Source of the DNA: Methanococcoides burtonii DSM 6242
GTDB lineage: Archaea > Halobacteriota > Methanosarcinia > Methanosarcinales > Methanosarcinaceae
Reading direction: 5' to 3'
Length of the DNA: 64,000 nucleotides
Assembly: GCF_000013725.1 (NCBI RefSeq)
Contig: NC_007955.1
Span: 899,579 to 963,578 of the forward strand
Under the pieces are notes generated by a model. That model searched no databases. It was not told the origin of the DNA and saw only the letters and a program-made list of their open reading frames with translations. Below are positions 29,701-32,889 of the stretch, piece after piece (the stretch's first letter is position 1; each line of letters opens with the position of its first letter). The position numbers were made by a program, and so were the translations under genes.

Positions 29701-31005
29701 GGGGCTGTCAAAAACTTTGGTGTTAGAAAGTTACAACTAATCAATCACAATGAATATATATTATGAAAGTGGATGAATGGTTATGACACCTAATATAACA
29801 TCCACTTTCGCATCCCACATTGACTCAATACAACTTAAATTAACTGATTGTTTTTCAGGCATTACAACTTTTGAAAAAGCAATCATATCCCATTTTAGTT
29901 CAACTGGAAAAAGGAACATTCGAAATGAGAAGGAACTTGTTTTGCATGCTGACAACCATTTTGATCTTTTACATCCTCAGTGCCCCGTATGTGGTTCCAA
30001 TAAAATAAATAAACAAGAGTATTATACGCGTAAGTTAAAGTTAGCAGAATTTGGAAGTCAAATAATCCACGTACGAAGATATTATTGCAAAAAATGCTCT
30101 AAAAGATTTACAACACCCCGACTCAATTGTTAAAAAAGGTCATCAATATGCCAGAACATATGAACAGTATATTGAAGGTTATGAAACAGGATATTGTTCA
30201 TTTAGACATTTACAAAAAATATTCAGTTCACTTTATGATTGCTCCCCATCCCATCAAACCATCTATAACTGGATAAGGAAATCAAACAAAGAAGTGACTT
30301 CAGAAGCTACAAAAGAATACTCGGGTTATTATTGCTATGATGAACAATATTTAAAATTGAATGGAAGACGATTTTATAGGCTCAGTTTGATTGATTCAAT
30401 ATTCAATAAACCAGTTGAAGAAATGATCGTTACTAATCTTGAATATGATACAGTAAAGGATTTTATTGAAAAAGCAACATCAAACAGACCAATTTATGCA
30501 ATATCTACTGATCATCGGATAAAGTACAAATAGATAATGGATAAACTTGAGATAAAACATCAACTTTGCATATTTCATTTGTATAAATTGATTGGAAACG
30601 ATGTATTCAAAAAGTTAAAATCAAAATTTGTTAGTTACTGTGAAAAGATAAACATGTGTTTAACATTTACAGAAATAAAAGAGATATTTAGAACATATGA
30701 TGTAAGTATCGCAATCAATAGGCTTCAAAATTTAATAGACGGTATTAAGAAAATTCCATATGCTCTTTATAGATCAATAGACAAAATCACTAGAGATTTT
30801 AATAGATTGACTTTGTTTATGGTAGATGGATTTGTTTCTAAAACAACAAATCCAATCGAAAATTATTACAGACAAACATTACCTAATCAGCTAAAAAGAA
30901 TATTTAAAACACCCGAAGGAGTGTTGAATTATTTGGCTGTAAAAAAGAAATACTGGGAAGGTAACATATCAAATAAAGTTTAACATCAAAGTTTTTGACA
31001 GCCCC
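29701..31005 (+). mobile_element. IS element with 19-bp perfect terminal repeats
   Basis: 1305 bp bounded by GGGGCTGTCAAAAACTTTG (29701-29719) and its complement ending at 31005; matching extends to 24 bp with one mismatch. The well-kept ends indicate a recent insertion. No target duplication is evident. Family not assigned. It holds one transposase reading frame in two frames with a TAG. Confidence 0.8.
29777..30983 (+). pseudogene. DDE transposase frame interrupted by a +1 shift and a TAG codon
   Basis: Three open segments make one transposase of about 401 residues. 29777-30119 codes an N-terminal zinc-ribbon domain (CPVCGSNKIN ... YYCKKCSKRFTTP). At the CCCC run at 30116-30119 the frame must shift by +1 to go on as DSIVKKGHQYARTYEQYIEG, which stays open to 30530. 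A TAG at 30531-30533 interrupts DHRIKYK-IMDKLEIKH, then the frame runs to 30983. DDE-type residues are seen in CYDEQYLKLNG, YAISTDHRIKYK and TTNPIENYYRQTLPNQLK. Either it is a pseudogene with two lesions, or both sites are recoded; TAG codes pyrrolysine in Methanosarcinaceae. Confidence 0.75.
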
Positions 31006-31284
31006 ATTAATTCAATACGTTTAAATGTAGGAGACATTTTTTTACTACATTTAATTAAATAAATTCAAAAGCAAGGTTCACTATACAGCCGGTTTATCAT
31101 TATAGTGTTTGCACTTACCATAACAATTGGTATTTCGATAAATCAGGTTTTAGAATCGAAATACCATCAATTGCTTAAACAATTCTTGTCTAATAAAGAG
31201 TGTAATCTATTAAATTATTACAGTGTGTAGTGCTGATAACTTTGACCTTCAATATCCAGGTTAAAAAAGTAAGTCAATTCTTAA
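31006..31284. other. Intergenic region before the shikimate kinase operator
   Basis: 279 AT-rich bases between the IS end and the inverted repeat at 31285. No gene, RNA or repeat recognised. Confidence 0.4.
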
Positions 31285-31322
31285 ATATCAAATTCCCATA
31301 TATACTATCGGGAATTTGATAT
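31285..31322 (+). promoter_or_regulatory. Operator-like 13-bp inverted repeat around the TATA box of the shikimate kinase operon
   Basis: ATATCAAATTCCC (31285-31297) is repeated as its perfect complement GGGAATTTGATAT (31310-31322). The 12-base spacer, ATATATACTATC, holds the TATA box, and the right arm runs into the ATG at 31321. With TATA at about 31298-31305, transcription would start at or near the ATG, so the mRNA should be leaderless; no SD is present. A dimeric repressor bound here would block TBP and the start site together. The regulator is not known. Confidence 0.7.
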
Positions 31323-32184
31323 GACATTTACAGGACAAGCTTATGCACTAGGTGCCGGAACGGTCATAAACGCCATCGCTACCTGGAAAGGGGCGGCTTT
31401 TGGAGTTGACCTTAAAACATTTGCTGATGTTGAACTGACGAAAGAGAGTTCTTCCTTTATAGGCACTATTGAAGGTGTACCACATGGGGACACTACGCTT
31501 ATTGAAAGGTCCATGGACCTTGTCCTCGAGCACTTTGGCATCGAAATGGGTGGGACCGTTGTTACTCGGAGTGAGGTGCCCCTTGCAAGCGGTTTGAAGA
31601 GCAGTAGTGCTGCTGCCAATGCTACTATTCTGGCTACGCTGGATGCTCTTGGTGAAACCCTTGAACCGCTGGATGCAGTTAAAATGGGAGTAAGGGCTGC
31701 AAAGGATGCTGGTGTTACCATCACCGGGGCTTTTGATGATGCATGTGCCTCATTCTTTGGTGGGATTGTTGTAACGGACAACCGGACGAACGAGCTGGTC
31801 AAACGCACTGAAAAGGAAATGGATGTGGTTATCTTTGCACCGGACAGGCAATCCTTCAGTTCACAGACGAATGTGCATAATTCAGAACTGCTGGCTCCCT
31901 GGGTTGATATGGCATACGATCTCGCACTTGATGGGGAATATGAAAAGGCTATGACGCTTAACGGTTTCCTATATTGCGGTGCTCTTGGTTTTAGTACTGA
32001 TGTCATGATGGAAGCATTGAAATGCGGAGTTAAGGGGGTCAGTTTATCAGGTACTGGTCCTGCGTATTCTGCTCTTGTTGACAGGAAAATGGCAGACACT
32101 CTTACGAAAGTTTGGGAAAATCTTGGAACGAGCGGAAAAGTGATAAATACCAAGATTAATAATGATGGATTAACTAAACTTTAA
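31321..32184 (+). CDS. Shikimate kinase, archaeal GHMP type
   Basis: 287 residues. It phosphorylates shikimate at the 3-OH in aromatic amino acid synthesis; archaea use this GHMP-superfamily enzyme instead of bacterial AroK. Motif 1 (substrate side) is at the N-terminus (GQAYALGAGTVINAIA), motif 2 is the phosphate loop PLASGLKSSSAAANATILA (about residues 87-105) and motif 3 is VSLSGTGPAYSALV (near 240). The ATG overlaps the operator described at 31285-31322. Seven to fifteen bases separate it from the chorismate mutase gene, depending on that gene's start. Confidence 0.93.
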   Translation: MTFTGQAYALGAGTVINAIATWKGAAFGVDLKTFADVELTKESSSFIGTIEGVPHGDTTLIERSMDLVLEHFGIEMGGTVVTRSEVPLASGLKSSSAAANATILATLDALGETLEPLDAVKMGVRAAKDAGVTITGAFDDACASFFGGIVVTDNRTNELVKRTEKEMDVVIFAPDRQSFSSQTNVHNSELLAPWVDMAYDLALDGEYEKAMTLNGFLYCGALGFSTDVMMEALKCGVKGVSLSGTGPAYSALVDRKMADTLTKVWENLGTSGKVINTKINNDGLTKL

Positions 32185-32199
32185 TTTGCAGTGGAAACC

Positions 32200-32487
32200 A
32201 TGACCGCAATAGAAGAAGTCCGCAATAGGATCGAACAGATCGACTATGAGATTATAAAACTTATCGAAGAACGTATCGATTGTGCGACTGATGTTCTTGC
32301 TGTTAAAAAGAAAGAGCATATGTCCATCAATGATGGTACGCAGAACCATGTGGTACTCGACAGAGCCACAAATTCAGCAACCGAAAGGAGCCTTGATTCA
32401 GGGGCTGTTAAAGAAATATTCGAGATCCTGATTAGAATGAGCATTGAGCGTCAACATGAACTTAGCGGGGAAGGAAATCTTCCCTGA
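32200..32487 (+). CDS. Chorismate mutase, AroQ class
   Basis: 95 residues from ATG 32200; a GTG at 32191 would add three residues. It turns chorismate to prephenate, the branch to Phe and Tyr. The all-helical AroQ pattern is clear: EEVRNRIEQIDYEIIKLIEERI (helix 1 with the conserved Arg), AVKKKE (near 34-39) and a C-terminal helix KEIFEILIRMSIERQHEL. It is a stand-alone enzyme without the prephenate dehydratase or dehydrogenase fusion of many bacteria. Twelve bases separate it from purE. Confidence 0.88.
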   Translation: MTAIEEVRNRIEQIDYEIIKLIEERIDCATDVLAVKKKEHMSINDGTQNHVVLDRATNSATERSLDSGAVKEIFEILIRMSIERQHELSGEGNLP

Positions 32488-32499
32488 AGGAGATTAAAA

Positions 32500-32889
32500 A
32501 TGGTAGATATTTCAATATTAATGGGGTCTGAATCAGATCATGCAATAGCAACCCGAGTTACGAGTGTCCTTGAGGATACCGACTACTCCTTTGAAGTGAA
32601 AGTTATCTCAGCACACCGTGATCCTAAAAAACTTGATGAATACATTGCTAAGAGCGATGCAAATGTCTTCATTGCGATCGCAGGCCTTTCTGCAGCACTT
32701 CCTGGAGTCATTGCCTCAAAGACCATAAAACCTGTTATTGGTGTACCGGTTAGTGCAAAACTCGGTGGACTTGATGCACTCTTATCCATAGTTCAGATGC
32801 CACCAGGAGTTCCTGTCGCAAGTGTTGGTATAGATAATGGTGCTAATGCCGCAAAACTAGCCATAAGGATACTTGATCTTCTTAATTAA
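32500..32889 (+). CDS. purE: N5-carboxyaminoimidazole ribonucleotide mutase / AIR carboxylase
   Basis: 129 residues, somewhat shorter than bacterial PurE (about 160) but with all motifs: [10 protein letters not shown] (nucleotide phosphate loop, 8-17), [14 protein letters not shown] (catalytic His, near 42), [18 protein letters not shown] and [32 protein letters not shown]. It forms CAIR in purine synthesis. Whether it acts on N5-CAIR or on AIR plus CO2 depends on the presence of purK, which is not here. AAGGAG stands eight bases before the ATG. Purine and aromatic genes share one transcript, perhaps by chance. Confidence 0.93.

Follow-up and report, generated by a model that had tools for sequence, protein, structure and literature searches.

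A conserved palindrome across the aroK promoter of Methanococcoides, a putative operator of a single operon

What is known of how archaea regulate the synthesis of aromatic amino acids comes mainly from two proteins, TrpY and Tar. TrpY of Methanothermobacter thermautotrophicus is a methanogen repressor that acts at promoters of an aromatic amino acid operon, and Tar (TK0271) of Thermococcus kodakarensis is an activator that uses the palindrome TGGACA-N8-TGTCCA upstream of BRE/TATA, a site common to the trp, tyr-phe and aro operons (PMC6737238). Repressors that sit further downstream are also described. The TGM sites of TrmBL1/Tgr, and repression of the MDR1/Phr type, place an inverted repeat 3' of the TATA box and over the start, where it hinders polymerase recruitment; TGM itself is the short motif TATCAC-N5-GTGATA and is found at many promoters (PMC4158304). 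In Thermococcus onnurineus, EnfR represses one gene cluster, the codh cluster, from a 36-bp pseudo-palindrome that overlaps a TATA-like box; the protected region spans -44 to +3 relative to the start codon (PMC10570040). Here we describe a palindrome of comparable layout at the promoter of the shikimate kinase gene aroK of Methanococcoides burtonii, found in a stretch of 64 kb, which we call the window.

The inverted repeat and the promoter elements it covers

The repeat occupies positions 31285-31322 of the window and is 38 bp long. Its left arm ATATCAAATTCCC (31285..31297, + strand) and its right arm GGGAATTTGATAT (31310..31322, + strand) are 13 bp each and perfectly complementary, with the 12-base spacer ATATATACTATC (31298..31309) between them, and the right arm extends over the first two bases of the aroK ATG at 31321. 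The exact coordinates bear out the form and position given in a preliminary description of this DNA. The gene that follows, aroK (31321..32184, + strand), encodes a shikimate kinase of the archaeal GHMP type (TIGR01920, 273.6 bits against a cutoff of 126.9), and chorismate mutase (32200..32487, + strand; TIGR01791) and purE, the N5-CAIR mutase (32500..32889, + strand; TIGR01162), are the second and third genes of the putative operon. This gene order is kept in Methanococcoides and in most other relatives examined; at two more distant loci aroK and chorismate mutase alone were visible within the stretch read.

Among the perfect gapped inverted repeats of the window (gap up to 40) this one is the longest, and aroK alone among 44 crude window genes has perfect arms of at least 8 bp between -60 and +10. 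We simulated 64-kb sequences with a first-order Markov model matched to the real window in dinucleotide make-up, and arms of at least 13 (gap up to 40) appeared in 2 of 40 simulations, a mean of 0.05 per window. With a chance level of about one in 20, the raw-sequence statistics are suggestive only. As we read the alignments, it is conservation and not these statistics that gives the repeat its persuasive force.

The preliminary description had taken an ATATATA in the spacer to be the TATA box. This stretch varies between the genomes; CTTAAATATCAA (31280-31291), by contrast, has the same sequence in all 11 Methanococcoides genomes, which moves the TATA box upstream, to CTTAAATAT (31280..31288, + strand; invariant in 11/11 and followed by an invariant CAA), where its 3' end reaches into the left arm. 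In archaea the TATA box is found about 26/27 bp 5' of the start (PMC4158304), and the mapped starts of Methanolobus psychrophilus are 19-22 nt away from promoter elements (PMC5378194). Taken together with the invariant TATA box, both spacing rules imply that the transcript should start near G31310, at a pyrimidine-purine step within the right arm, and the palindrome is then centred about 19 bp 3' of the middle of the TATA box and about 7 bp 5' of the predicted start. The leader predicted from this, GGGAATTTGAT, would be 11 nt long and open with an SD-like GGGA 7 nt before the ATG. A fully leaderless mRNA, as first proposed, does not agree with this position of the TATA box, and the accompanying claim that no SD is present is insecure, since GGGA can pair weakly with the 3' end of 16S rRNA. 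The duplex with the anti-SD was predicted at -5.4 kcal/mol; the corresponding values are -4.6 for the AGGA of another genus (g5) and -19.1 for a complete SD.

Conservation within the genus and rearrangement beside aroK

If the repeat were an operator it should also be present upstream of aroK in close relatives, and the preliminary description had named this as a check. The palindrome was found at aroK in each of the 11 Methanococcoides genomes examined. Of the relatives with a species name, M. alaskense, M. seepicolus and M. vulcani are the nearest, and a collection of genomes with organism names confirmed the relatives and contained no further Methanococcoides clade. The repeat is identical in five genomes, and the six genomes of a sister clade keep 10-12 of the 13 pairs around a spacer of 13 bp, with 1 to 3 uncompensated arm mismatches. 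In M. burtonii, G059, M. alaskense, M. seepicolus and G064 the identity covers 51 nt 5' of the ATG, and the fourfold-degenerate divergence of aroK from M. burtonii among these species is 12-28%; for the sister clade it is 57-65%. Across the genus 23 of the 26 arm columns are invariant (11/13 in the left arm, 12/13 in the right) as compared to 7 of 13 in the spacer (one-sided Fisher p = 0.024), and in the genus alignment the flank also drifts while both arms stay conserved. The TCCC of the left arm is the same in all 11 genomes. In G052 and G028 the repeat gains one inward pair (ATATCAAAATCCCG / CGGGAATTTGATAT), which brings it to 13/14.

The surroundings of the promoter have been less stable in two species. 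In 9 of the 11 genomes hyuA (hydantoinase/oxoprolinase) ends about 10 nt 5' of the TATA box, and in most relatives its TAA stop lies in the left edge of the conserved block (31270..31279, + strand), abutting the promoter. M. seepicolus has an insert of roughly 1 kb between hyuA and the aroK promoter, and in M. burtonii hyuA is about 35 kb distant and on the opposite strand. The sequence 3' of hyuA is common to these two species, which points to one shared insertion and then an inversion in M. burtonii; an inversion of about 35 kb (about 31270 of the window and C1:965597), with a break beside the aroK promoter, is thus likely. From AAGTCAATTC onward the promoter block is unchanged between them, at a fourfold divergence of 20%. 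That the block stayed the same in both after it had parted from hyuA places selection on the block itself, within about 31271-31322.

Some other features of this region were also observed. The insert of M. seepicolus carries an ORF without assigned function, at the site of the M. burtonii break. Between argG and aroK the window contains an IS-like element (29701-31005) with 25-bp terminal inverted repeats GGGGCTGTCAAAAACTTTGRTGTTA; its transposase is broken into several frames and has a weak match to an ISL3-type zinc ribbon. A second perfect inverted repeat, TGGTATTTCGAT (31128-31166), with 12-bp arms and a 15-base spacer, lies between this element and aroK, and it matched no known RNA family above threshold.

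A putative operator and other explanations of the palindrome

An inverted repeat that lies on the TATA box and the predicted start, and that recurs at the orthologous promoters of the whole genus, is what would be expected of a repressor site. The likeliest reading, in which we have moderate confidence, is that a dimeric repressor uses the 38-bp palindrome as its operator and controls the aroK-chorismate mutase-purE operon alone in Methanococcoides. The left half-site would then be on the downstream edge of CTTAAATAT and the right half-site over the predicted start and the 5' leader, and a dimer bound in this way would keep TBP/TFB or RNA polymerase from being recruited. TATA box, start site, leader and putative operator would in that case be united in one block of 43 bp (31280-31322). 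Several points speak against an operator. Next to the operon we saw no gene for a transcription factor; a single site offers no independent instance of the motif; the mismatches and the longer spacer of the sister clade would be unusual for a tightly bound dimer; some conservation of the TATA box, the ATG and the SD-like GGGA is to be expected without any operator; and aroK of other genera is found without the repeat.

It is conceivable, though on balance rather unlikely, that there is no operator and that the block consists of basal promoter and translation signals (CTTAAATAT, the start, GGGA and GATATG), the symmetry in the M. burtonii clade being partly accidental. The outer bases of the arms do fall on the TATA box and the ATG, and GGGA stands at SD distance, like the AGGA of genus g5. 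The imperfect symmetry in the sister clade, with zero compensating changes, also fits such an accident, as does the occurrence of a perfect 13-bp arm by chance in about 1/20 such windows. To our knowledge no basal element between the TATA box and the start requires TCCC, and basal signals leave the invariance of this left-arm motif in 11/11 genomes unexplained. They would also not account for the whole 51 nt remaining unchanged in five species despite the 12-28% fourfold divergence, for the extension by one pair to 13/14 in G052 and G028, or for a repeat that is unique among the 44 window genes.

The repeat could instead function in the RNA. Transcripts reading through from hyuA would form a hairpin that masks GGGA and AUG, and only mRNA from the operon's own promoter, which would begin near G31310 and lack the left arm, would be translated. 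The close spacing of hyuA and the TATA box in 9/11 genomes is suited to such a switch, the promoter-started RNA would be unable to form the hairpin, and the hairpin of the read-through RNA is predicted at -16.7 kcal/mol for M. burtonii (z -4.6), -16.2 for G052 and -14.6 for G002. The corresponding fold in G037 has only -8.5 kcal/mol and a z of -0.9, barely beyond shuffled sequence. Not a single compensatory pair was seen, 10 of the 13 pairs never vary and the other three vary by breaking only, but with so few variable positions the power of this comparison is low. Furthermore, M. burtonii and M. seepicolus have kept the repeat unaltered with hyuA no longer directly 5' of it, and no Rfam family matched at the gathering score, with sub-threshold matches only. 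We find the hairpin improbable. A transcription terminator or the remnant of a mobile element, which the IS-like element upstream (29701-31005) and the need of hyuA in the relatives for a nearby end signal could bring to mind, is very improbable, as there is no T-run 3' of the repeat, and the repeat is single-copy in each genome, fixed at aroK and outside the IS-like element.

Distribution of the palindrome and comparison with described regulators

A search with the arms, allowing up to 3 mismatches, found no second site in the M. burtonii genome, and a sequence profile of 46 positions recovered the aroK site alone over the 11 Methanococcoides genomes. Weaker profile matches (E about 0.006-1.5) looked like chance where they were examined, and one of them, which falls in a relative (L080) within apparent coding sequence for EPSP synthase, was rejected on this ground. 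Four matches in M. burtonii have identical scores, which suggests a repeated element. The surroundings of the chorismate synthase gene gave no match to the repeat. Outside the genus, the region 5' of aroK was examined in Methanolobus, Methanosarcina and further genera of the family, and the Methanococcoides repeat was found in none of them. Two genomes of the Methanosarcina-like genus g7 (G032, G062; L092, L098) have a weaker repeat, TTACCTC..GAGGTAA, directly after a TATA-like sequence 5' of aroK, and it is unrelated in sequence to the Methanococcoides repeat.

In the aroA'/DHQS operon of Methanococcoides the TATA box is followed directly by another conserved near-palindrome, GTGYTASTATGTSACATASTARCAC, which differs from the aroK repeat and spans the predicted start of that operon. 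It occurs once per genome in 11/11 genomes (C1:2102997-2103021 in M. burtonii, L042), G068 and G037 have variants of it that keep the symmetry, and it is probably the operator of another regulator. The preliminary description had proposed a general repressor of aromatic amino acid synthesis and suggested a search for the same pattern at other aro or trp genes. This wider role is not supported, since neither the arm search in the M. burtonii genome nor the profile over 11 genomes found another site and the palindrome at aroA'/DHQS is unrelated; the operator itself, as a conserved palindrome over the operon promoter, remains the preferred part of that proposal. One motif at several aro, tyr and trp promoters, as in the regulon of Tar, was not found in these searches, and a shared aromatic regulon of this kind is not supported by a single aroK site next to a different palindrome at aroA'/DHQS. 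A more speculative idea, to which we give little weight, is that each shikimate-pathway operon of Methanococcoides has a start-site palindrome of its own and an undescribed repressor dedicated to it, as the aroK repeat and GTGYTASTATGTSACATASTARCAC could exemplify. This would imply that the control of one pathway is split among private regulators and is not in the hands of one regulon.

TrpY differs from the putative aroK repressor in its target, which is an operon other than that of aroK. The TRP box is TGTACA, and this motif is absent from the arms of the aroK repeat. Tar and the aroK repeat have in common a palindrome at the promoter of a shikimate or aromatic operon. The aroK repeat differs in lying 3' of the TATA box, in its unrelated sequence and in its restriction to one operon, and TGGACA-N8-TGTCCA was not found upstream of the aroK TATA box. 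In position it resembles the TGM sites, as both are 3' of the TATA box and overlap the start (the predicted start in the case of aroK), but the aroK repeat has longer arms, a spacer of 12 and a single occurrence. As a type of candidate it is otherwise ordinary; as a putative private operator in a psychrophilic methanogen it would offer a short and exact bait for a third archaeal regulator of aromatic synthesis. The operator of EnfR, cCaTCtTAaAATcT..., is unrelated in sequence and belongs to a different pathway, yet its geometry is nearly the same, with a layout that is proven for EnfR and predicted for aroK.
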